This document shows positions 9,346-58,715 of a stretch of DNA of 64,000 nucleotides, piece by piece. A program made the position numbers and the translations under genes. A model generated the notes under the pieces. That model saw only the letters and a list, made by a program, of their open reading frames with translations, was not told the origin of the DNA and searched no databases. Every line of letters starts with the position of its first letter. The stretch's first letter is position 1. This DNA is from Bolinopsis microptera (taxonomy: Eukaryota > Ctenophora > Tentaculata > Lobata > Bolinopsidae), in contig NC_087079.1 in assembly GCF_026151205.1 (NCBI RefSeq), positions 310,001-374,000 of the forward strand, read 5' to 3'.

Positions 9346-10082
9346 CCTCTCTTGTTTTTTATGTTTGTTTGTTTGGGGCTGGCTTTTACACCAGTCAATG
9401 TTTACTCAAAATATATAATAATTGTAATAATCAATATTAATCCCCGAAGGGCACGCAAATTACATGTCAACGAACTCATATTTATTTCGTCTAGATTTTA
9501 TCAGTTGATTCTGATGACCCTGATCTGCAAACACATTTGAAAGCTTAAACGTTTATATCAAATTCTTTACTTGATAATACTGTCGTAGGTGTTTTATCAG
9601 TATAGGTTTGCGCTAGTTGGCAGTGAAATATGGAATGTGCTGTCAGGATGGCACGATAAGTGATTTAGATTCTTAGGTTATTCTCGGTAGTTGATTTGTT
9701 GAGTGCCTGATCTTGCTGATTTACGTAGCCCGGGTAAATTATGTAACAGAAAAGTTGGCCATTCTTCATCGTTTCCTGAGCTTTGTAGTTCTATCATTAC
9801 ACGCTTTGCTGATTTCTTATAAATGCTTATTGAGAAAATGCTAGATGGGCAAGTTATGCGACTAATGTTGTGCTCGGTAATAGCTAATATAGGACCTTTA
9901 TACAGAACACTAGCGCGTAGATCTGGTTGAGAGTACGTTGTTAGCCAGTCGATATTGTCGTCATAAGACGTGCCATACTTTGGTAAATCGGGAGGAAATA
10001 AGTCTTTTATCGACGACGGCAGAAGGCCAGGCATGTAATTGCCCATTTATTCCTAAACTTTTGGTCAAATAGGTTGTCCCCC
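9346..10082. other. Intronic DNA with an unassigned minus-strand ORF
   Basis: A minus-strand frame of 122 codons at 9678-10046 (start MGNYMPGLLPSS, end INYRE) is open but matches no family I recognise. No splice sites tie it to the gene around it. It may be transposon debris. The phrase gcccatttattcct at its 5' side recurs at about 10629, 11300 and 11540. Confidence 0.3.
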
Positions 10083-18171: not shown

Positions 18172-21100
18172 TTACTTGTACTTGAAAAGGTCTCCTCCTA
18201 TTCGTTGGAGTGGCCTGCACCACATAGTAACTCCTTTCTCCGATGTATTAGGCCTCTCCAATGTACCCTGTTTGTTGCTTGTTGTTCTACATCTTCTATC
18301 GTGATGTTATCGACACCTGTGAAGATTGCTGCATCCTCCCGGACACATGACAGCCAGTTTTTCCGAGGTCTACCTCTTGATCTTTTACCATGCTTTGGGA
18401 TCCAGTGCAGAAGATAGTTGGGTATTCTTTCTTCTGGCATCCTCACCACATGGCCAAACCATCGGAGCCTAGCTGCTCGTACGAAAGTATCAACAGGGGC
18501 GATGTTGGCCCGCTTACGTACGTCAGCATTAGATACGTGATAAAACCATTTGATTTTCAGGATTCTTCTCAGACATCTATGATGGAACACCTCAAATCTT
18601 TTCATCTGCGTCTGTGTGGTATTCCATACCTCACTTCCATAAAGCAGTATAGTGAGGACAGCCGCTTTGTAGATCCTGATTTTAGTCGGTGTCTTGATGT
18701 TGCGACTGTACCATATACTGCTAAGCTGATAGAATGCCCCAGAGGCCTTCTGAATTCGAGCTGATAGTTCTTTGTCGATTGTTCCATCCGCACTGATGAT
18801 AGCACCCAAGTAAGTGAAGCTGCTGACCTGCTGTATTGGGAGACCTTCCACATTGATGTCCATAGTGTCGTCTTTAGAATACGGCCTCTGCGATGCACTT
18901 TTACTGACAGCCATGCTCTGTGTTTTGCCAGCATTAATCTTCAGACCCGCATAGGCACTGTATTTGCAGAGAAGGTCAGTGGTTTCCTGCAGCCCCTCTT
19001 TTGAGTTATCTAACATGGCCATGTCATCAGCGTCCAAGAGATGTTTCTCTTCTACCCCGGGGGCTGGCAGCTGTAATAGAGCCCCCTTACTAATGACCTT
19101 GTTCAGTTCCATAAGGTATGCCGAAAAATTCAGACAGAAGTTGAATACTGGTGGTCCCTGTATATCACCTTGCCCAGTTCCCGAGTTGACATCAAACCAG
19201 CCTGTAACCTCTCCATTGACCCTAACAGCACTAACTGTGTGAGTAAAGAACGCCTTCATGATTCTAATGTACTTGTCAGGTAAGCCGTAGTGCTGCATAC
19301 TTCTCCAAATGAACTGCCTGTCAATTGAATCAAAAGCTGCTTTGAAATCAACAAAATTAATATACAGAGGGATATTATACTCAATACATTGGTGTATAAT
19401 ACAGCGGAGTGAATAAACCTGGTCAATGCATGAGCGATTCTGCCTAAAACCACTTTGATTCTCCCGGAGAAATTTTTCCATGCCATTGCTAAGTCTTCGC
19501 AGGAGTATCATCTGCAGGAGCTTCGAGGCTGTGGATCTTAATGTAATGCCTCTGTTGTTAGCGCAATGAGAGGTGTCACCCTTCTTTCCAACGATGATAA
19601 TAACACCTTTGGACCAATCCTCGGGAATCTTCTCATCTTCCCACACTTTCTTGAACAACACAACTAGTTGATCAACTAACCCATCCTGTCCATACTTAAG
19701 TTGCTCGTTGGTGATACCATCCACTCCTGGACTTTTGTGATTCTTGAGTTTTTTGAGGGCATCAACAATCTCGTTTCTTGTAGGAGCCTCATCCGAATCG
19801 GAAAGGTCATCAAAACTGGGTTGAGGAGAGATGTTGTCTAGGTCGGAAATATTAGCCTCTTGCGGGGGCGGGTTCAATAGCCTTGAGAAGTGCTCTTTCC
19901 ACCTTTCTTTCTGGGCATGTGGGTCGGCAATCAACTGGCCAGATACGTCTCTAACTGCAGTTGACTGCTTCTTCTTCTTTCCAGATATGACATTAATCTT
20001 CTGCCATACCTCGCGTTGCTGACCTTTTCTCGCAGCTTCTTCCAGGTTAACAGCCATTCTAAGTGCCCAGTTGTTATCGTCCACCTTACTACTTTTTTTA
20101 AAGAGCTTATTCAATCTAGAATACTCTGACTTGTTAGCGTTTGAATTAGGGTCTTTACGCTTAAATTCTTTACGGTTCTTCAATAAATCTTTTGTCTTCT
20201 GAGATTGGTGCCTGTCCTTCTTTTTTCGAGGTCTTTGCCCAAGGATTTCCATGGAGACTTGTTGGACAGTTGTCTTGAAGTTGTCCCACATTGATTCCAG
20301 GTCAACCTCAGGTTCCAAACAGTCAAATTTGTTTCTCAGAACAATATTGTATTCGGAAACAAGTGAATGATCACGCAGATGCTCAATAGCAGGAATCTCA
20401 AGCTTACGTTCCTGCTTCTTTTTCACTGACATAAGCTTCATTCTCAGTCGTGCTCTTACCAAATAGTGATCAGACCCAATGTCAGCCCCCCTACAAACTT
20501 TTACATTTAGCAAAGAGCCTCCAAACTTCTTACTGATACAGATATGGTCTATTTGGTTTACAGTACGACCATTAGGTGATCTCCACGTACCTTTATGTAT
20601 ATCCTTTTGCTGAAACATAGTGCCACCGATGGTAAGTTGGTGGGCAATGCAAAAGTCCAACAATCGGGTACCATTGTCATTTGATGAGCTGTGAAGCGAG
20701 TGTCCACCAATGACACCTGACATAGAACTGCAGTCTGATGTGACCTTAGCATTAAGATCACCGAGCAGTAATTTTAAATCATGTCGGGGTAGCTCATCGA
20801 ATGCACTTGACAACTGCTGGTAGAATTCATCCTTATCATTATCTGAAGCCCCCTCAGTTGGCGCATATGCCACAACAACAGAGATGTTCAGGTGTTGACT
20901 ATGCAGCCTTGCACTCAACAAACGGTCAGATATTGGTAGATAGGAAATTAATGAATTTTTAATCCTCTTTGAAAGGGTAAGACCGACACCTCGCCTTCTT
21001 ATACCGTCCGTCCTCCCTGAATAAATAAGTAAGGAGCCATTATCCAGTAGCTCTGATCCTGTACCAGGCATATGGGTCTCAGTTATACCCAGCAAGTCCA

Positions 21101-21614
21101 ACTTATACTCAGAGATATTCTCTGATAGCTGGAACAACTGACTTTAACTACTTGTCAGAGATAATACATTCCATGTCCCAAATGTAAGACCTGTTTTAGA
21201 ATAATTCGCTGGCTGTTTCTTATTAGAGTCGGAGTCCACATGGGTGATCTGTGGAGAAATAAATCTGCTACAATGACGTGTTCTCCCAACACTCATCTGG
21301 CCACGGGGGTCCCTTAGGCTTTGCCCCGCCACCTTCATACTGGTATCATCCGTCCTTGCAGAGGGAGCCACACACCGTTTCTTGTTGTTACTTTGTGATG
21401 TTTCTGCAGCAAAATTTTTAGAGAGGAGAAGTTGCCAGCATCTCGCACCCGGTTTTTTATCGACCTTTGCCTGTCTAGATCCATAGTGTTTAGTTGCATG
21501 TCATCTGTTTATACTGGAGTCACCCAGGACAGATTACAATGCTTAATAGTAGCACCTCGAAAAGGATGTGATTCTTCATCACGCACTATGGTCATTGGAA
21601 TAGGAGAGGTGATT
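18172..21614 (-). mobile_element. RTE-like LINE, nearly intact, 3.44 kb, with 13-bp target duplication
   Basis: The element lies between two identical 13-mers ggagcctaagtac (18159-18171 and 21615-21627). The DNA outside those 13-mers belongs to one older LINE, so the insertion boundaries are well defined. Its 3' end (minus strand) reads ...aagtacaagtaa with no long poly(A), as RTE-type elements often lack one. It holds one long ORF broken once, described separately. Confidence 0.9.
18198..21371 (-). CDS. RTE-like LINE polyprotein: endonuclease plus reverse transcriptase, one in-frame stop
   Basis: The protein would nick target DNA and copy its own RNA at the nick (target-primed reverse transcription). 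The N-terminal segment (21371-21144) reaches LTFGTWNVLSLTSS, the first endonuclease motif, and is cut by a TAA at 21144-21146. The same frame then continues without interruption for 979 residues. Counting from that second part: endonuclease ITETH (about 20), GDLNAK (126) and SDH (222-224); RT FVDFKAAFD (D597) and the catalytic ADD at 703-705, with an unusual Asp before it (LDADD) where Tyr or Phe is usual; C-terminal RWFGHVVRMP and GRPRKNW. One stop in an otherwise open frame of about 1,055 codons suggests a recent insertion that has lost activity, or a sequencing error. Confidence 0.9.
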
Positions 21615-37631: not shown

Positions 37632-39833
37632 TTAAACATCGACTAAATATTTATACAAATAACTCAACTCAGAACGATCATTCATTTCAGGACTTAACCT
37701 CAATATATACATCGCTTCTACAATCTTTCTACGAACAGTTTTACTCTGTAAATCAAGTAACTTAAAAGATAAAACTGGGGTTCGGTTAGGATGTAGAGAT
37801 GCGTAGTGCTGTCCAACCCCATTCTCTGGATGTGCTCTAGGATTCCTAGCAGCCTGTCTGTGCTCCATCAGACGAGCATGGAGGCTTCTCTCAGTTTCCC
37901 CACAGTATCTCTTACCACATAACTCGCAAGTAACTAAGTAAATAGCTCCTTTTGTTGAGCATGTTGTTCCTGTGAGTCTAGGGCAGATCTCACAATTGTT
38001 AGGGTTACCAAGGTCACAAGTCTTCTTATCCAGTGGACGAGAGCGGCAGAAGATGTCCTGTAACTTCTTACCAGGTGTAAAAATAACTCTGATGGGGAGT
38101 TTGTTAGATTTGTTGTAGTTGCGAATCTTATTACAAACTGTTCCAGAGATGAATGGTAAGGTGAGTGGGACAGAGTCAGGTGTGGTTTGACGTCTTCTCC
38201 TAGTCCTCCTGTTCCTTGCGTTATGACTCAGAGGTTGGTGTCTATTTTTCTTTAAGAGATCATCGATGATCTTAACTGAATGATCGAGTTCCTGGGGTCC
38301 TGAGGAAGCAATGGTGGCATTACGGTAGAAGTTCTTCTTACACTCCTCCTTCACTGAGTCCGGGTGGTGTGACTTCTGGTGTAATGTTATCCCCTTGTTC
38401 TGGGTTTTCCTGTAGAATCTGTGGTGCACTTTTCCTTCCTCATCGATCCGGATTTCCGTACTCAGGAACGGGACAAAATCCGCAGGGGTAGACGGGAACT
38501 CGATCTCCCACTTGATTCTGTTATCGGGATCCTGGTCGGCTATGCGTTGTAACATATCCAGTGCTTCTTCTCTGGATTTGGCTAAGGAACCAGCATCATC
38601 TACATACCGTTTGTATAAGAACCGAACAGGGTTACTGATGTAATAACTGTCTAAATATATACTATTACGCTCGAATTTCCACATTCTAATAATCGCTACA
38701 GGAGGGGATGGTCTACAACCCATGAATAAACCTAAAAGTTGTTTATAAAGTCTCCCATTAAATGTAAAATAAGAATTCGTCAAAACTACTGTAAAGATAC
38801 CTCTAATTTCTGATAAACTTAAACAATACGTACTTAACTTACTCCAATGTTCTTCTGCAAATTCAATAACTGTCTCAATACACTCATTGATATTCAAATT
38901 CGTATACAAAGCTGATACATCCGCTGTAAAGAACTGTAAACCTTTAAGTTCACTCTCTGGTAACCTACAGAGGATGTCCAGGTGGCTGTAGATATCGTAC
39001 ATATGAGTAGGTACTTCTCTCAACAAAGGACTGATAATGTCGGTAACTAACCAAGCCAACTTCTCTGTAGGTGAGCCACAACACGATACGATTGGTCTAA
39101 CTTTCATATCCTCCAAGTTGATACGAGAGTAGTCAGTATCAGGTGGGAACTTGTGTGTCTTCACCAGGGTGTACATAGTAGGTAATGTAGAGTACGAGCT
39201 AATAAATATTAATAAATCCTCAATACGTGAGTCTAATTCCATATGGTTACTGCAAATAGTCCGCCACAACCTATTACACTCTGATTCAATATCTGCACAT
39301 TTCTTGTTAATTTGATTCTGATACGTTATAGGAGTAGGTCGTTGAACAGGTCTGCGTACTCCGTAACTCGAACGGGTGGGCTCTACCCATTCGTAGACTC
39401 CAGAAGTGCTCTTGTTCAGGTGTTCGATCGTTAGCGTCCGGTACGTATCAACACTAGTCACGACAAACTCGCCACACTTATCAGACTTCGAGATGTGAAT
39501 GTTCGGTCTTTCCTTGAGAGTACGTAGTCCAGTTCGCTGATTAAAAGTGAGGTTTGATGGTGGCTGGATATCTGGTGCTCTCAGGATGCTCATCATAAAC
39601 CGGTTGAACAATTTCAAGTCCATCTCGAGTTGTGGATCTTCGTTCGGTGGTGCAGGGATGTAGGGTCGTTGAAACGGGCATTTCTTCTTGCGTGCTTGCC
39701 TGTACAAAGAATCTAACTGTCCTGGGTTCAGAGCTTCGTTAGGTTCGTTGGATTCGTTGTTACGTTTCCATCTGCACTTATACGCACATTCAGTCAAGTT
39801 CACTTCAACCTCTTTTATCAACGATTCATCCAC
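37632..39833 (-). CDS. Penelope-like RT with GIY-YIG endonuclease, 5'-truncated
   Basis: This is the polyprotein of the main Penelope-like copy, 733 codons from the first NTG. The frame stays open to the junction at about 39846 with no ATG, so the natural start is lost. The RT part carries TADVSALYTNL (catalytic D305), the TLVKTHKF and RPIVSCCGSPTEK blocks typical of the group, and the catalytic YVDD at 410-413. A basic linker (NRRTRRRRQ, about 541-549) and CDLGNPNNCEIC lead to a GIY-YIG nuclease from about 629 (AIYLVTCELCGKRYCGETER, then R and H in LHARLMEHR). No internal stop is present. RT and nuclease together would nick a target and prime copying there. Confidence 0.92.
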   Translation of the reverse strand: MDESLIKEVEVNLTECAYKCRWKRNNESNEPNEALNPGQLDSLYRQARKKKCPFQRPYIPAPPNEDPQLEMDLKLFNRFMMSILRAPDIQPPSNLTFNQRTGLRTLKERPNIHISKSDKCGEFVVTSVDTYRTLTIEHLNKSTSGVYEWVEPTRSSYGVRRPVQRPTPITYQNQINKKCADIESECNRLWRTICSNHMELDSRIEDLLIFISSYSTLPTMYTLVKTHKFPPDTDYSRINLEDMKVRPIVSCCGSPTEKLAWLVTDIISPLLREVPTHMYDIYSHLDILCRLPESELKGLQFFTADVSALYTNLNINECIETVIEFAEEHWSKLSTYCLSLSEIRGIFTVVLTNSYFTFNGRLYKQLLGLFMGCRPSPPVAIIRMWKFERNSIYLDSYYISNPVRFLYKRYVDDAGSLAKSREEALDMLQRIADQDPDNRIKWEIEFPSTPADFVPFLSTEIRIDEEGKVHHRFYRKTQNKGITLHQKSHHPDSVKEECKKNFYRNATIASSGPQELDHSVKIIDDLLKKNRHQPLSHNARNRRTRRRRQTTPDSVPLTLPFISGTVCNKIRNYNKSNKLPIRVIFTPGKKLQDIFCRSRPLDKKTCDLGNPNNCEICPRLTGTTCSTKGAIYLVTCELCGKRYCGETERSLHARLMEHRQAARNPRAHPENGVGQHYASLHPNRTPVLSFKLLDLQSKTVRRKIVEAMYILRLSPEMNDRSELSYLYKYLVDV

Positions 39834-39850
39834 TTTCCGAGGTAATGCGA

Positions 39851-40554
39851 ATTGCTTCCTCAGGACCCCAGGAATTGCTTCCTCAGGACCCCAGGAACTC
39901 GATCATTCAGTTAAGATCATCGATGATCTCTTAAAGAAAAATAGACACCAACCTCTGAGTCATAACGCAAGGAACAGGAGGACTAGGAGAAGACGTCAAA
40001 CCACACCTGACTCTGTCCCACTCACCTTACCATTCATCTCTGGAACAGTTTGTAATAAGATTCGCAACTACATCAAATCTAACAAACTCCCCATCAGAGT
40101 TATTTTTACACCTGGTAAGAAGTTACAGGACATCTTCTGCCGCTCTCGTCCACTGGATAAGAAGACTTGTGACCTTGGTAACCCTAACAATTGTGAGATC
40201 TGCCCTAGACTCACAGGAACAACATGCTCAACAAAAGGAGCTATTTACTTAGTTATTTGCAAGTTATGTGGTAAGAGATACTGTGGGGAAACTGAGAGAA
40301 GCCTCCATGCTCGTCTGATGGAGCACAGACAGGCTGCTAGGAATCCTAGAGCACATCCAGAGAATGGGGTTGGACAGCACTACGCATCTCTACATCCTAA
40401 CCGAACCCCAGTTTTATCTTTTAAATTACTTGATTTACAGAGTAAAACTGTTCGTAGAAAGATTGTAGAAGCGATGTATATATTGAGGTTAAGTCCTGAA
40501 ATGAATGATCGTTCTGAGTTGAGTTATTTGTATAAATATTTAGTCGATGTTTAA
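39851..40554 (+). pseudogene. Inverted partial Penelope-like copy: GIY-YIG domain only
   Basis: It starts at the junction with two head-to-tail copies of a 23-bp sequence (39851-39873, 39874-39896) and then follows the main copy from ASSGPQELDHS through the GIY-YIG nuclease to the same stop. Differences from the main copy are few (for example NYIKSN against NYNKSN, ICKLCG against TCELCG). The RT is absent. Codons upstream of 39851 in the same frame are antisense of the main copy and not real protein. Confidence 0.88.
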
Positions 40555-52868: not shown

Positions 52869-53390
52869 GTATGTCCCCGTCCCAACTTCACACATTATTC
52901 ACCTTTACCAGATTCCGATAATTATAAACCCCCCCCCCCCCCTCCGTGAATTATTTTACAAATAGCCAGTGTGTAGGAATTACACTAGAGCTTTCCCGAA
53001 CCCACTCTCCCATATGCTGATTGAGGAGCACTACCCGAAGGCATTACTCGGCACTAACGCCTTAAAATCTTTAATTACAATCAAATATAAATATATGCAC
53101 ACAATGTATAAAGTATTAATAATGTATAAAATATGATTATGCTATTAGCAAATTTAAATAGTACTATTAAGAATTTTAAATAACTCTTATCTCTTGACAT
53201 AAATTTAGAACAGCGACACAGGGTCTGAAGAATGCGCGGTGATATTTTTATCTTTTAAAAGTTGTAAATGACAGTGAAATTGCGCGGTTTCGATAGCATT
53301 GTAAAAAATGCTCGAAGATAGTCATATTTTGTTATGAGGTTAAAGTTTTGTTGCTCGTTATTATGATCAACGTATGTTGTACCAAATTAT
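52869..53390. other. BTF3 intron 3, left part, and probable LINE 3' UTR
   Basis: A C run (52928-52941) is followed by AT-rich sequence. The portion nearest 53390 is likely the 3' untranslated end of the minus-strand LINE. I could not define its boundary because no target duplication was found. Confidence 0.4.
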
Positions 53391-56300
53391 TTAAATTTCT
53401 AAAAGTACGAAATTTGAGTTGTCCCAGTCCTTGTCATCCGGTTTATGTGCTTGTGCAGTAAGCACATGCTTGTTGACTGTAGACTTGAATGAATTTAGGA
53501 ATTTGTCTTGTAGGCAAGTGGTGACATATTTTATGTCCTTGTTAATAATGTTGACTGTTTGGTTATATAACTTAGGCCCAATGTAAGAAATGCTCTTGTC
53601 TGAATTACATAAACGGTTAAATGGTACTGCAAAGAACTCAGGTTCTCTTCTAGGTGCGTTTAAGTTTGAAACAGTGAACATTCTTATAATATTTGGTGGT
53701 GCAGTGTTAGAATAAACTTTGTGCATTAAGCATAATATACATTTAGCTATCACGTTCGGTAAAGCTAATACTTCTAGTTTATTGAAAATTTCCTTTGTGT
53801 GTGAAGGTGTGCTATTCAGATCTTTGTCATAAAAATAGCGGTGGTATTGGTTATCTGCAGCGCGAATGCCCTTTTTCTGGGCCGAGAAGACTCTTTTAAC
53901 GGAGTTTAGCGATCTTGTTCCCCAAACTGTGCAGCAGTAGTACAAGTGAGACTGAACAAAGCTGTTGTATATCAACTTGAGTGCTTTGTTAGGTACTGAG
54001 CCTTTGAGTTTGTAGAGAATACCCGCATTTCTAGATACTTTAGTGGCTAAATGTCTAATGTGGTGGGCCCAATTTAGCTTGGTATCAATGATCACGCCAA
54101 GAAACTTTTCGTGATAACTTTGCTTTAGTCGCTCACCTCCCATGTAGATTTCTATATCCTTAGTTTTTTTATTTGTAAAGATCATATATTTAGTTTTGCT
54201 AGCATTTAATTTGAGCCCGTTATTAGTAGCCCAATCAATTATCAAAGTCAGAATCTCATTCACCAATGCATTAAGTTGTTCAAATGTATCTGTACTTATT
54301 ATTAGGTTTGCGTCGTCAGCGAAATAAATATGTTTAGCTAAATTACTAATCTGAGGAAGGTCGTTGATGTAGATTATGAACAGAATTGGTCCGAGAATGG
54401 AGCCCTGTGGTACTCCGTAGTTAAGTTTGAGGTGAGAGGACTTGCAGTTGTTGACGCTCACGTATTGCTCTCTATCGGTTAGATATGAGTGAAACCAAGA
54501 TAAAGCCAACCCCCGAACTCCATAGTGCTCAAGTTTTCTCAGAAGAATACTGCTGTCAACCATGTCAAAGGCCTTGCTGTAGTCCAATAGAAGCAGTGCT
54601 GTGACCTGCTTTTTTTCTAGTGCCCTGTGAATATGGTTTTGGGCTTCTAGTAAAGCATGTTCGCAGCTGTGCCCAGCCCGAAATCCGTATTGAGAGTCAA
54701 ATAGGATTTTCTCTGTCTTTAAGTGATCTAATAGTCGCGCTTGCATAATTTTTTCAAAGATTTTTGAGAAACATGAGAGTAGTGAGATAGGTCGATAGTT
54801 TGAAACTTCAGCACGTGACCCACCTTTGTGAAGTGGAACTACTTTCGCGATTTTCAATTTATGCGGAAACTTTCCCTGATGTAGAGACGCAGAGACTAGG
54901 CAGCTAAGCACTGGTGCAAGTATATTGCTCACTTTTTTCAGGGGAAGTATACTCATATCAGAAGTCGACTTAATCTTCAAACCCTTCACTATTTCAATTA
55001 TTTCTGATGCGGACGAATCTTCTAGATTCATGCTCCGCTGGCATTTGCTATCTTGAGTTTCTGTTACGATAGTCCTGCCCTCAGAGCATACGAGACCATT
55101 TTCTCTCTTAAGAGTCTCAGCTATATTGCAGAAATAGTCATTGAAGCTATTCGCAATTTGCTGTGAATCTGTTATCTCGCTCCCATTATAGTTAATTTTG
55201 TTTATCTTAATTTTGCCTTTTTTCTTTCTGTTTAACAAGTTATTAACCATTTGCCATTGTTTTCTGCTGTCGCTAGAATATTTTGTAAAGTACGCGTTGT
55301 AATATTTGTTTTTGGCCTTATCCACGTGTTTATTCACAAATTTCTTCATTTTCTTGTACCTAATATCATTTTCAGTGGTCGGGTTTGTGACAAAATCTTC
55401 ATAAAATTTATTTTTGCGATCACATGCGCACCGTAACCATTCTTGGATCCACGGCTTTGTGTTTTTACGGCGGCCTGGTTTACTCTTTTTTGCCTTAATT
55501 GGGAAATTTCGGTCGTATAGTTCACTATATTTTTTATCGAAAGCCTCAAATTTTTCATCTACAGAATCATAGTTATTAACCAAGTTCCAGTCTACCGCAG
55601 AAATGTCGTTCTCGAACTTTTGGATACTGTCATCGTTTATTACTCGAGAAGACATTTCTGTTGTATCTTCTTGAAGTTTACAACTGAGCCTATTCTGATC
55701 AACCATGATTGTGACAAAAGTTGCCAAGTGGTCAGAGATTGACTCAGAAATTACTCCCGATTTTGTAACAGCGTGGCAATTATTGACGAAAATATGGTCA
55801 ATGATTGTCGCACTGTGATCTGTGACTCTAGTTGGTCTAGATATCACAGGAGCGAACCCATGCTCTGCTAGAGTATCCACATACTTAGTGACAGAGTCTA
55901 TTCTCCCGTAATCTAGTAGGTCTATGTTAGTATCACCGGCCAGTATGATATTTTTGTTTCGATGTCTTGCTAAGTTACGGAGGAAAATTTTTAATTGTTC
56001 AAGGAAACCATTCAAATCCCCACTTGGAGAGCGATATATATTACAGATTAACGCGTTTTTGTGCCCTTTCAAGGTAAGTTCTGCAACCAAGAATTCTCCT
56101 ATCTTAGGATTATCGTGGCAACATAGAGCGCTCTTAACGTTTATGTCAGATAATTCACATAGTTTTTTGTTAACATATATAACTAATCCTCCACCACGAT
56201 TTGACGCTCTGGCGGGAGTCTGAACATACGGTGGATAGAAACCTTCTAGTTCGAGCTCCTCTCCCTGAAAAGGCAAACATTCCGTGTTACAATTTGTTTC

Positions 56301-57002
56301 ATTGAAGCAGAGAACGTCGTATTTTGTGTATTGATCTATATTCTCCCGAAATTCTTCAATGTTCCCATTAAGTGACCTAACGTTTAGCGAGAAAAGTTTT
56401 AATTCATACTCCTTCGTATTTTTTATTGCTTTCGCGGTATAGTATTTGCAGTTATTTAGAAGACTAGACGTTGTTTCCCACGGATTCAAATCAGCATCAG
56501 TATCATCACGATCACCTATTTGATTTGATAGGTGGTCGCGATTAAAGGGGTTAAACCTAATAGTGTTACTGAGATTTATCATGTGAAGCTGTCTAATGGA
56601 GACATCATATGCTGGGAAAATTTTTCTTAAGCATTCTTTGCAGCCTGTTGAGCCAGCAGAACATCTTGTGTGGGATAGGTTGTCACAGTAGCAACATTTG
56701 GTCATTTGTCTTACATTCCCAATTTTTGTGCAAGTGTGACATTTTTCTCGTTTATTGGAGACTGGGATTTGTATAGGCCGTGATGGTAATAGAGGCATGA
56801 CGGCGCCCACTGGAAGAATTTCTGAAATGCAGCTGTAGCAAGACCATTCTCCAGTAAGTTCAGTTATGTCGCTAGGTGTTAGGTGAGCACATTTTGGGTG
56901 ATATGTCATATAACAGATACTACAAGTGATGCTTATCTTGTGTGAGACTAGGCGCTTTGTACAGGCCTTACAGCTATTTTTACTACTTCGGATAACTACC
57001 AT
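53391..57002 (-). CDS. LINE ORF2: two PHD-like fingers, endonuclease, reverse transcriptase
   Basis: 1,203 residues from ATG without a stop. Order: PHD finger 1 (C11, C14, C27, C30, H35, C38, C55, C58); a second Cys/His cluster of the same spacing (C88, C91, C103, C106, H111, C114, C121, C124); apurinic-type endonuclease about 200-430 (SLNVRSL, FNETN, GDTNIDLL with GD at 356-357, SDH at 423-425); RT about 700-960 (NYRPISLL, D807 and D813 in LLDYSKAFD, GVPQGSILGP, catalytic FADD at 894-897); then LNASKTKYMIF and KFLGVIIDTKLNW. PHD fingers and this RT type match CR1-like LINEs. The PHD pair may direct the complex to histone tails, but that is inference. Confidence 0.95.
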   Translation of the reverse strand: MVVIRSSKNSCKACTKRLVSHKISITCSICYMTYHPKCAHLTPSDITELTGEWSCYSCISEILPVGAVMPLLPSRPIQIPVSNKREKCHTCTKIGNVRQMTKCCYCDNLSHTRCSAGSTGCKECLRKIFPAYDVSIRQLHMINLSNTIRFNPFNRDHLSNQIGDRDDTDADLNPWETTSSLLNNCKYYTAKAIKNTKEYELKLFSLNVRSLNGNIEEFRENIDQYTKYDVLCFNETNCNTECLPFQGEELELEGFYPPYVQTPARASNRGGGLVIYVNKKLCELSDINVKSALCCHDNPKIGEFLVAELTLKGHKNALICNIYRSPSGDLNGFLEQLKIFLRNLARHRNKNIILAGDTNIDLLDYGRIDSVTKYVDTLAEHGFAPVISRPTRVTDHSATIIDHIFVNNCHAVTKSGVISESISDHLATFVTIMVDQNRLSCKLQEDTTEMSSRVINDDSIQKFENDISAVDWNLVNNYDSVDEKFEAFDKKYSELYDRNFPIKAKKSKPGRRKNTKPWIQEWLRCACDRKNKFYEDFVTNPTTENDIRYKKMKKFVNKHVDKAKNKYYNAYFTKYSSDSRKQWQMVNNLLNRKKKGKIKINKINYNGSEITDSQQIANSFNDYFCNIAETLKRENGLVCSEGRTIVTETQDSKCQRSMNLEDSSASEIIEIVKGLKIKSTSDMSILPLKKVSNILAPVLSCLVSASLHQGKFPHKLKIAKVVPLHKGGSRAEVSNYRPISLLSCFSKIFEKIMQARLLDHLKTEKILFDSQYGFRAGHSCEHALLEAQNHIHRALEKKQVTALLLLDYSKAFDMVDSSILLRKLEHYGVRGLALSWFHSYLTDREQYVSVNNCKSSHLKLNYGVPQGSILGPILFIIYINDLPQISNLAKHIYFADDANLIISTDTFEQLNALVNEILTLIIDWATNNGLKLNASKTKYMIFTNKKTKDIEIYMGGERLKQSYHEKFLGVIIDTKLNWAHHIRHLATKVSRNAGILYKLKGSVPNKALKLIYNSFVQSHLYYCCTVWGTRSLNSVKRVFSAQKKGIRAADNQYHRYFYDKDLNSTPSHTKEIFNKLEVLALPNVIAKCILCLMHKVYSNTAPPNIIRMFTVSNLNAPRREPEFFAVPFNRLCNSDKSISYIGPKLYNQTVNIINKDIKYVTTCLQDKFLNSFKSTVNKHVLTAQAHKPDDKDWDNSNFVLLEI

Positions 57003-57484
57003 TTTTTGGCTGTAAATGATACTCTTGTTTAAATGTAGATATAGGTTTGCTACTGTATATTAATATATAATAAAGTACACGGAAAAACAGTTACTGAAAG
57101 TATCTACTCCAGATGAGTGAGCCAAGAAAATGGGGCCAGGGAAGAGTGAGAAAACGTGCGAGGTTTTGTGAACACTCTGTCCGGGTCCCTAACTTCAGCT
57201 CCTAACTAGAGAAATCAATTCAGTTAAGTGTTATTCTGTGGGAATAAGTTTAAAAAGTTAATTGAAGTATGTGAAATGTGAATGTGACTTGTATTCTGTA
57301 TTTGTAACTTGTAAGTGTATGTACTTAGTGGTCTGATTACGTGATTCAAATTAGTAAAGATAAGATTTCGATTAGCCGTAAGCTGGTGCAGATAAGACAT
57401 GGTTCGTATACTGTACGATTCTTAGTAGATTAATAATTATGTCCAAATTTTCGATGTAGTATGTTTGTATATTGTATTGCTGTT
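57003..57484. other. Spacer between LINE ORF2 and ORF1
   Basis: About 480 bp with no ORF, within the transcribed length of the LINE. It presumably carries whatever sequence lets ORF2 be translated downstream of ORF1. Confidence 0.45.
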
Positions 57485-58648
57485 CTAAGGTCTGCCCAAT
57501 GAAGAAACATACTCCCGTCTTAGCGGCCAGTGTTTTCGAATTAAGTAGCTGCGCCCCATAAATTCTTTGACACAGGTAGCAAGAGAGCGAGCTATCTCTC
57601 TCTTGGACAGTACTGTTAGGTGGATTCCGTTTCCATCAGGATCTACAATGACCTCTCTTCTCTGGTATAAAACAGTACAAATATGGTGCGAGTCAAAGAA
57701 CCATAGCTTGGACACTCTATTGCTTAGTTCAAAAATAAAACTGTTAAAAAGCTTAACCTCCTCATTAAGCCACGAGAAACGTGTGAGAACTAAAGAATTA
57801 AATATAAAAGTCGTGTTAGGATATTTCTCAATTAGATAATCAATATTTCTTTTAAAATCACATGAAAGGGAGTGGTGGTGGTGGTCATAGCGAGATAAAT
57901 CGTTTATACCAGAAGAAATTATGACAATTTTAGAGCCAGAAATATACTGTTCGTGATCTAAAATTTTGGATAACTGGTACATTTCGCGTTTGATGCAGTG
58001 TACGTTAGGAAGGTCGAAAGGAACATCTCTGAGAAGCGAGTCCGTCAAGAATAATAGACGCTCCTTAGGTTGAGACTGCTCAGTAACTGTAGGCTTATGA
58101 ATCGGTTCGTGGATCCTCGGGATTTTTTTGCGAGGGGGGGTATTCTGAGAGAGGCGTCTGAACGTAAGCGATATTCTGCAGTCCTGAGTTTCTGGTTGTG
58201 GCAATATACCATGCTCCCAGAAATTCTGTGATTCACGTGTCATCACATACACACATCCATGATCAAGTTTGTGGATCTGTTGTTTGACCGGACCGACTTT
58301 GCTACGAAATACCAGGTCTCTAGAAGCCCCAAGACTGAGTGTAATGATGTCACCAGTGACCTCATTTTCATCATCACTGTGGAAGGGTATATGGCACTTG
58401 CCGTTTTCATATTTGGTGATTAGACAAGTTACCTGCTCCTTATTAAACGTAGGGTCATCTAATGCATTCGAAATGTTTGTAAAAATGTGGTCAATAATGC
58501 TTGTATTTGCCATCCTTGCTCCAAGAATAGAATATGTGGCAAATGTAACCATTATATAATATTTAATGTGGCTTTCCAAACCTCCTTTGTACTGCAAAAA
58601 CAATGTTATTTGCCATTTCAATTTCTGATTCCACAAATCATAAAACAT
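57485..58648 (-). CDS. LINE ORF1: AlkB-type dioxygenase fused to an SGNH/esterase-like domain
   Basis: 387 codons from the ATG at 58648. The frame is open to 58711 and the true start may be further up or lost. Numbering from 58711, residues about 22-190 form an AlkB domain: YENGKCHIPFHSDDE with iron ligands H111 and D113, LSLGASRDLVF, DHGCVYVM, third ligand H167 in WEHGI, and the 2-oxoglutarate RX5R motif R179-R185 (RISLTFR). Residues about 215-395 look like an SGNH hydrolase: LLFLTDSLL (S225, with Thr replacing Gly of GDS), SSGIND (G268, N270) and GIHLT (H364). The basic, Pro-rich linker is at about 186-216. AlkB proteins remove alkyl groups from nucleic acids, and CR1-like ORF1 proteins are known to carry an esterase. 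The nearest sequence parallel for the AlkB part is the AlkB domain of some plant RNA viruses. Confidence 0.88.
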   Translation of the reverse strand: MFYDLWNQKLKWQITLFLQYKGGLESHIKYYIMVTFATYSILGARMANTSIIDHIFTNISNALDDPTFNKEQVTCLITKYENGKCHIPFHSDDENEVTGDIITLSLGASRDLVFRSKVGPVKQQIHKLDHGCVYVMTRESQNFWEHGILPQPETQDCRISLTFRRLSQNTPPRKKIPRIHEPIHKPTVTEQSQPKERLLFLTDSLLRDVPFDLPNVHCIKREMYQLSKILDHEQYISGSKIVIISSGINDLSRYDHHHHSLSCDFKRNIDYLIEKYPNTTFIFNSLVLTRFSWLNEEVKLFNSFIFELSNRVSKLWFFDSHHICTVLYQRREVIVDPDGNGIHLTVLSKREIARSLATCVKEFMGRSYLIRKHWPLRREYVSSLGRP

Positions 58649-58715
58649 TAGGTTTGTGGCAGCATGGTATATTTGGAGCAATTTAAGGGTTAATTTATGG
58701 TACCTACCCACTCAG

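Follow-up and report, generated by a model that had tools for sequence, protein, structure and literature searches.

AlkB-type dioxygenase and SGNH hydrolase-like domains in ORF1 of several LINE families and in Helitrons of the ctenophore Bolinopsis microptera

Introduction

Can a long interspersed nuclear element (LINE) carry its own AlkB-type dioxygenase, and what would such an enzyme do for it? The question is raised by a stretch of 64,000 nucleotides from the ctenophore Bolinopsis microptera (contig NC_087079.1, positions 310,001 to 374,000), referred to here as the window and corresponding to C8:310001-374000 of the searched genome G000 (264,652,675 bases, 232 contigs). A first-pass annotation of the window, made from the sequence alone, proposed that an AlkB-type dioxygenase is fused to an SGNH esterase-like domain in the first open reading frame (ORF1) of a LINE. 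The genome-wide analysis described here demonstrates that the AlkB-SGNH architecture of ORF1 recurs among LINEs of this genome with its ligand motifs kept and with purifying selection between subfamilies, and that a Helitron contains domains of both kinds.

The AlkB-SGNH frame as ORF1 of LINEs

The frame in the window is located at 57485-58711 on the minus strand, where the plus strand is riddled with stop codons. All the motifs named in the first-pass annotation (H111-S-D113, H167, R179/R185, TDS, SGIND and GIHLT) were located. The AlkB call holds, as the ligand set and the RX5R motif are present and residues 90-185 match the Pfam family 2OG-FeII_Oxy_2 (PF13532) above the curated threshold (5.1e-19; 69.7 bits against a cut-off of 31.2). 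In a phmmer search of PDB chains, ALKBH2 (2.3e-9), ALKBH3 and E. coli AlkB aligned to residues 80-188. The SGNH call is supported by its motifs and by a profile match to PDB structures, described below, but the Pfam match of residues 258-366 to Lipase_GDSL_2 (PF13472; 1.3e-3, 19.7 bits) falls under the cut-off of 32.9.

A whole-genome search with ORF1 revealed 103 matching stretches, including that of the window. The first AlkB ligand and the GIND motif of SGNH are both spanned by 76 of the 103, 73 of these 76 being free of stops, and 53 lie within frames of at least 530 amino acids. At least eight LINE families (named A-H here, with representatives read per family) contain an AlkB-SGNH frame followed by an ORF2 for endonuclease and reverse transcriptase (EN-RT). 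Because AlkB, esterase and ORF2 are joined in other copies of family A and in seven further families, the frame is not host DNA lying beside a LINE, and its assignment to ORF1 is upheld. Of 28 ORF1 hits of families A and C with an intact 3′ end (the window copy included), 18 are followed by a scored co-oriented ORF2 at a distance of 482-611 bases, or 19 when one at 2411 bases is counted. As the scoring of ORF2 covered 38 of 7015 candidates, the nine hits without a scored ORF2 are not absences, and in three of them (L003, L026 and L027) ORF2 can be seen to begin within the flanking sequence. Many of the ORF2 copies located on other contigs show 97-100% identity, which indicates that transposition was recent.

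Pfam detected both endonuclease and RT in ORF2 of families A, B, D, E, F, G and H, and ORF2 of family C, which is 57% identical to that of the window, was recognized from this identity and from its Pfam endonuclease. In the copies of families D and F that were read, ORF2 is broken into several frames. Pfam scores a PHD finger in ORF2 above its cut-off for family C and under it for A, G and H; up to E 0.1, it detected none in B, D, E and F, whose ORF2 starts are Cys-rich by eye. The elements are non-long terminal repeat (non-LTR) retrotransposons and are Jockey-superfamily-like, the RTs having been compared among the elements of this genome.

The copy in the window belongs to family A and is truncated at its 5′ end. 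Its DNA identity to copies on other contigs extends from 58497 to 53018 (minus strand), and in near-identical copies long enough to test, the protein match to the frame starts only at residue 66-68. Therefore, some 71 residues at the N-terminus of the frame (58498..58711, minus strand), unmatched in other family A copies, derive from flanking DNA outside the element. The frame begins with GTG directly after a stop codon, the ATG codons upstream of residue 72 belong to the flanking DNA, and residues 1-75 have a 93% match at C8:226529-226753. Full-length family A elements are about 6.3 kb, a length reckoned by combining the 5′ end of L003 with the window copy's 3′ end. The truncation cuts the AlkB core, which lacks the R..YFG..Y.YG segment of intact copies; what remains at 58151..58497 is the C-terminal catalytic part (HSD...H...RxSxTxR), delimited by PF13532, the phmmer matches to ALKBH2/ALKBH3 and alignments, and is followed by the SGNH/GDSL-like domain (TDS, GIND, NGIH) at 57542..58060, both on the minus strand. 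The first-pass annotation had taken a stop-free copy with intact motifs as a sign of selection. This argument fails for a copy truncated inside its AlkB core, whose stop-free frame is uninformative on its selection, so that the evidence for selection has to come from other copies. The same truncation rules out the window copy as an active one.

Downstream of the frame on the minus strand, a spacer of 482 bases (57003..57484) separates ORF1 from ORF2, and of the 13 family A hits for which an ORF2 was scored, 10, including the window copy, have a gap of 482 or 486 bases. ORF2 (53391..57002, 1203 amino acids), delimited by Pfam matches and near-identical copies on other contigs, contains a PHD-like finger (56829-56972; Pfam PHD 9.3e-4), an endonuclease (55728-56390; Exo_endo_phos 2.2e-14) and an RT (54087-54806; RVT_1 4.3e-38). 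Thus, of the co-oriented PHD-EN-RT ORF2 announced by the first-pass annotation, the endonuclease and the RT are confirmed by Pfam, but the PHD finger remains under the cut-off. The 3′ untranslated region (53018..53390, minus strand) ends in an (AATC)n-type tail, which is short in the window copy (CAATCA). The 3′ end is common to the six copies compared, including that of the window, and five of them have (AATC)n tails. Six copies (L003, L004, L005, L007, L008 and L009) have one common 5′ end with different flanks, and three (L002, L006 and the window copy) start later. A search for target-site duplications found only GCA/GCAT common to both flanks of the window copy, which is not informative. 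CAAAT-like bases precede the common 5′ end in L004, L005, L008 and L009, which may reflect a target preference.

The N-terminal region of ORF1 is variable. In a heptad test for coiled coils with 200 shuffles, none of the shuffles reached the values of P0002 and P0004 and two reached that of P0005; the scores of P0001, P0003 and P0006 were unremarkable (20, 26 and 30 of 200). An N-terminal coiled coil is thus likely in some families, judging from these heptad scores. Neither an RRM nor a CCHC knuckle was detected in eight ORF1 representatives (Pfam up to E 1). Within this otherwise variable part of ORF1, STQT recurs in families A, B, D and G; TQT is the core of the binding motifs of dynein light chain LC8.

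AlkB domain

The AlkB domains of different families are 30-50% identical (63% for E versus F), and families A-H all retain HxD, the distal H and RxSxTxR, with HND in place of HSD in family F. Invariant in six representatives and the window frame are H281, D283, H337, R349, S351, T353 and R355 (P0002 numbering). PF13532 scores above the cut-off in seven of the eight family representatives. The AlkB matches from NCBIfam all lay far below its cut-offs. A profile built from eight AlkB segments matched ALKBH3 (3.7e-24), ALKBH2 (3.3e-20), ALKBH8 (1.3e-6), E. coli AlkB (6e-4) and DNA N6-methyladenine demethylases (1.4e-3 to 0.011) in the PDB, and neither ALKBH5 nor FTO was among its matches up to E 10. 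The AlkB domain of L053, searched by itself, matched ALKBH3 at 7.6e-10, ALKBH2 at 2.8e-8, AlkB at 1.2e-6 and ALKBH5 at 0.08. By these comparisons, the nearest solved structures are ALKBH3 and then ALKBH2, rather than ALKBH5/FTO.

An acid after HxD (HxDxE) is common to the AlkB domains of transposable elements (TEs) and to ALKBH2/3. All 16 TE AlkBs examined retain HxD, the distal H and RxSxTxR, whereas all five cellular AlkBs compared (three from this genome, two human) have RxNxTxR, in a small, hand-chosen sample whose 16 TE members include two copies from a single Helitron family. In the AlkB tree (the AlkB, SGNH, ORF2 and RT trees were computed with FastTree), TE domains stand apart from cellular ALKBH2/ALKBH3, except for L054, placed with the cellular AlkBs at the end of a long branch (0.974). 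This position can be due to a second gain or to long-branch attraction; as L054 carries RxSxTxR, a common TE origin is favoured. A search of IMG/VR for relatives of the protein, made with six patterns, gave no match. With alignment A1, which supplied a single SGNH pattern so that AlkB alone was not probed, none of 13 pattern matches in IMG/VR was confirmed, nor was any of 95 in GTDB prokaryotes.

SGNH domain

In the SGNH part, D394-S395, G438-I-N-D441 and H534 (P0002 numbering) are invariant in six representatives and the window frame, and the block I Ser and GIND are invariant across the seven families aligned. The region of the catalytic histidine reads DxxH only in families G and H, NGIH in A-C, and other residues in D, E and F. 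A seven-family SGNH profile matched the PDB entries 3p94 (0.0035) and 2hsj (0.024). SGNH or its motifs were found beside AlkB in all 16 TE frames examined, in family B and L058 by alignment or motif alone. The domain order is AlkB-SGNH in the LINEs and SGNH-AlkB in the Helitron.

Selection on ORF1

Ratios of nonsynonymous to synonymous substitution (dN/dS) were computed by the Nei-Gojobori method for 19 pairs plus five further comparisons. Between subfamilies of family A, AlkB gave 0.15, 0.10 and 0.08, SGNH 0.13-0.19 and the N-terminal region 0.29-0.33; the subfamily pair L009/L006 gave 0.14, 0.47 and 0.49 for AlkB, SGNH and the N-terminal region, respectively. AlkB is therefore under purifying selection between subfamilies. 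Low ratios were also obtained for AlkB of L053/L055 (0.13) and for two Helitron copies (AlkB 0.16, SGNH 0.23). The comparison of E with F gave 0.09 for AlkB with dS near saturation, and dS was infinite in a second computation; since dS is saturated between most families, those ratios were not used. The L001/L005 ratio (0.76), which the flanking residues in the window frame inflate, was also left unused, and L003/L004 show no change in AlkB.

Further LINEs and Helitrons with AlkB

A search of the same genome with PF13532 gave 151 matches from 587 candidates, and the matches listed are all above the cut-off. Three genes look cellular, L050 being 52% identical to human ALKBH2, and L051 and L052 being 51% and 41% identical to human ALKBH3; the 151 matches stand against only these three cellular-looking ALKBH genes. 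Outside families A-H, eight further TE frames were examined, namely the ORF1-type frames L053-L058, the giant frame L060 and its shortened copy L059/L072, and all eight contain PF13532. SGNH is under the Pfam cut-off in L053, L055, L056, L057 and L065 (the continuation of L054); in L058 it is unmatched by Pfam, and GDSN, GIN and DxxH motifs were identified by eye. RT frames follow L053, L054, L056, L057 and L058 (five of five flanks examined). In L057 and L058, a PHD-like finger under the cut-off is located within ORF1 itself.

Pairwise identity among the RTs of A, B, E, G and L061-L064 is 28-69%, whereas that of L065, which follows L054, to each of these RTs is 23-25%. At C1:21679770-21682298, L054/L065 places AlkB and a weak SGNH before this RT of a different lineage, possibly by a second capture. 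The ORF1 of family B is nearest to those of A and C (A+B supported by 0.984 in the SGNH tree, and by 0.290 and 0.901 in two AlkB trees), whereas in the ORF2 tree, where the pieces of B and C are short (325 and 309 amino acids), A groups with C (1.000) and D is the closest family to B (57% identity, support 0.435). This discordance hints at an exchange of ORF1 between LINE lineages.

Helitrons are recognized by 5′-TC ... CTRR-3′ ends and insertion at AT. The Helitron L060 (C10:16870900-16880850) forms with L066 one frame of 3388 amino acids, in which SGNH (8.1e-6, below the cut-off), AlkB (4.5e-21), DUF6570, Helitron_like_N (PF14214; 3.1e-22) and PIF1 (PF05970; 2.9e-22) are accompanied by proline-rich repeats. 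The PF13532 search also placed AlkB at C3:14441692 and C12:8338315, within frames 3321 and 3366 amino acids long, and the stretches on either side of AlkB contain SGNH (6.4e-10, above the cut-off, and 1.2e-5), Helitron_like_N and PIF1. The Rep-type domain and the PIF1-like helicase of L060/L066 recur in L068 and L070, and a Helitron copy on C1 combines SGNH (4.6e-9) with AlkB in a frame of 1012 amino acids. Further giant AlkB frames (2225-3366 amino acids) are among the genome matches listed. Other AlkB frames, several of them of recurring lengths, include C7:5566229 and C9:7330260 (777 amino acids), C9:17171507 (851) and C8:12002624 (779).

Proposed function and alternatives

The reading that we prefer is that the window frame is an ORF1 remnant and that the AlkB domain of ORF1 acts as a demethylase of 1-methyladenine (m1A) and 3-methylcytosine (m3C) in single-stranded nucleic acid of the element, to which we assign a probability of roughly 45%. 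LINEs and Helitrons both pass through single-stranded intermediates. The ORF1 protein (ORF1p) would consist of an N-terminal region (likely to form a coiled coil in certain families), an ALKBH3/ALKBH2-like AlkB domain and an SGNH hydrolase, and would coat the element RNA. By oxidation, AlkB would strip the methyl groups that m1A and m3C bear on their Watson-Crick face in single-stranded template RNA or cDNA, and the substrate in Helitrons would be the single-stranded DNA (ssDNA) intermediate. The methyl groups would come from alkylation or from host methyltransferases and would block polymerases, so that their removal would favour full-length copies. According to one report, m1A blocks Watson-Crick pairing and shortens cDNA, and RNA treated with AlkB loses m1A, m3C and 1-methylguanine (m1G) and yields full-length cDNA (PMC9141559). 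ALKBH3 is described as demethylating 1-meA and 3-meC in ssDNA and RNA, with ssDNA preferred to double-stranded DNA (PMC5304225). The SGNH domain probably has the role proposed for ORF1p of ZfL2-1, namely membrane or lipid contact and ribonucleoprotein assembly; this protein, with reported phospholipid binding and hydrolytic activity, is the best SGNH precedent (PMC3905857).

Several observations weigh against this reading. We infer the activity, the substrate and the benefit of the AlkB domain from sequence. PF13532 does not match family G up to E 1, and RxSxTxR in place of the cellular RxNxTxR may mean that substrate or kinetics differ. SGNH is under the Pfam cut-off in every LINE frame scanned and is unmatched in family B up to E 1; moreover, the position -3 from the SGNH histidine is not Asp in families A-F, so that with the acid of DxxH replaced, the esterase may be weak and binding may outweigh hydrolysis. 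A single-sequence structure model of window residues 22-408, made with no alignment, had a mean predicted local distance difference test score (pLDDT) of only 38.6, too low to be informative on the double-stranded beta-helix fold of AlkB. For some pairs, the dN/dS of AlkB approaches or exceeds 1, as in L034/L037 (0.99 and 1.23 in two computations) and in the pairs with the 5′-shortened L024 (L013/L024, 1.15; L017/L024, 1.24), and constraint is weak in L026/L028 (0.59), L032/L038 (0.48) and L013/L017 (0.29). These ratios are read as drift after insertion, with few changes in young pairs; they are expected but lend no support.

The same enzyme might instead serve epitranscriptomic evasion, erasing N6-methyladenosine (m6A) or another regulatory mark and thereby freeing element RNA from host readers. 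The AlkB encoded by a Phalaenopsis Gypsy element demethylates m6A in vitro, and evasion was proposed there (PMC9289625); ALKBH3 also removes N6-meA from tRNA (PMC5304225). However, the LINE AlkB profile meets ALKBH3/ALKBH2 and, up to E 10, not ALKBH5/FTO, the AlkB of L053 searched by itself matches ALKBH5 only at E 0.08, and mammalian L1 is reported to be helped by METTL3 and suppressed by ALKBH5 (PMC7873242). An m6A-type AlkB was accordingly demoted from first choice by the PDB ranking, and evasion is considered unlikely; judging by these affinities, alkylation repair of element RNA or cDNA would fit better than the erasure of m6A-like marks.

AlkB proteins hold single strands, and the RNA-binding part that RRM or CCHC would provide is otherwise missing from ORF1, so AlkB might be retained chiefly as a single-strand-binding module of ORF1p with catalysis incidental. 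This is slightly less likely still, as the retention of HxD, the distal H and RxSxTxR throughout the TE AlkBs is more than binding alone should need. Another proposal, to which we give a little less credence again, is that the enzyme targets host molecules (tRNA, chromatin, repair or signalling) and makes the cell permissive: ALKBH3 is described as working on tRNA and promoting protein synthesis in cancer cells (PMC5304225), and host-directed action would benefit LINE and Helitron alike. Chance association, with a host ALKBH gene beside the LINE or a gene captured in one copy, is hardly credible. Its sole support is that the window copy is truncated at its start, whereas ORF2 is linked in many copies and families and the ALKBH2- and ALKBH3-like genes sit separately elsewhere in the genome; the multi-family linkage rules out the host gene.

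Other elements in the window

The AlkB set matches the window only near 58 kb. Elsewhere on the minus strand, the window contains an RT piece at 439-2547, a 25-28% identical relative of the ORF2 of the window copy, a C-terminal ORF2 tail at 9696-10037, 57% identical to family G, and an EN-RT frame of another lineage at 18198-21143. Two opposed frames (37632-39902, minus strand; 39673-40554, plus strand) appear from their sequences to have a common GIY-YIG-like C-terminal part, and we take them to be copies of a Penelope-like element.

Relation to known systems and significance

The closest known architecture is the esterase-type (type IV) ORF1 of CR1/L2 elements, for example zebrafish ZfL2-1, likewise a two-ORF LINE, with a coiled coil and an SGNH esterase; PHD domains are also known in the CR1 and L2 groups, but AlkB is not mentioned for ORF1 of the ZfL2-1 type in the available text of these sources (PMC3905857; PMC4120745). 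In the survey of 448 elements by Metcalfe and Casane, reports of esterase-type ORF1 are confined to two vertebrate groups within the Jockey superfamily, and its available text has no word starting with “AlkB” or “oxygenase” (PMC4120745). The Ty3/Gypsy element of Phalaenopsis is also a retrotransposon encoding an AlkB/2-oxoglutarate-dependent dioxygenase active in vitro; it differs in being an LTR element with AlkB in a separate ORF, ALKBH5-like and acting on m6A, and “esterase” is absent from the available main text (PMC9289625). It was the sole AlkB-carrying retrotransposon lineage among the literature matches listed. In Flexiviridae, which are plant RNA viruses, AlkB is likewise an accessory domain of a replicating RNA, and RNA repair has been discussed; there, it sits in a replicase polyprotein with methyltransferase, helicase and RNA-dependent RNA polymerase, in some cases with OTU or peptidase (PMC544882). 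Human ALKBH3 and ALKBH2 align with the LINE AlkB through HSDDE/HRDDE and the RX5R segment, but are cellular genes with about 25-35% identity to the LINE domains and RxNxTxR. As for Helitrons, L060/L066 has Helitron_like_N and PIF1, and differs in having SGNH and AlkB in the same frame as Rep/helicase; the mobilisation of an SGNH gene by a Helitron has been described in platyfish (PMC4021074). AlkB in LINEs was absent among the literature matches listed, which did not cover most subscription papers, bioRxiv or Repbase and did not come from a search for AlkB in Helitrons; with this partial coverage, an earlier description is possible.

Ctenophores have been argued to be the sister group of all other animals (PMC10232365). 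The role of esterase-bearing ORF1 proteins has been called poorly understood (PMC3905857), and a second enzyme with known single-strand chemistry on such an ORF1 provides a directly testable activity. More tentatively, AlkB and SGNH may constitute an accessory module common to several LINE RT lineages and Helitrons of one animal genome, kept by selection and demethylating single-stranded intermediates. If this is true, transposons would carry a nucleic-acid repair system of their own, which RxSxTxR sets apart in sequence from the ALKBH2/ALKBH3-like genes that this genome also contains. Confirmation of the predicted activity would mean that methylated bases in template RNA or cDNA truly limit retrotransposition, strongly enough for elements of two classes to bring their own eraser.

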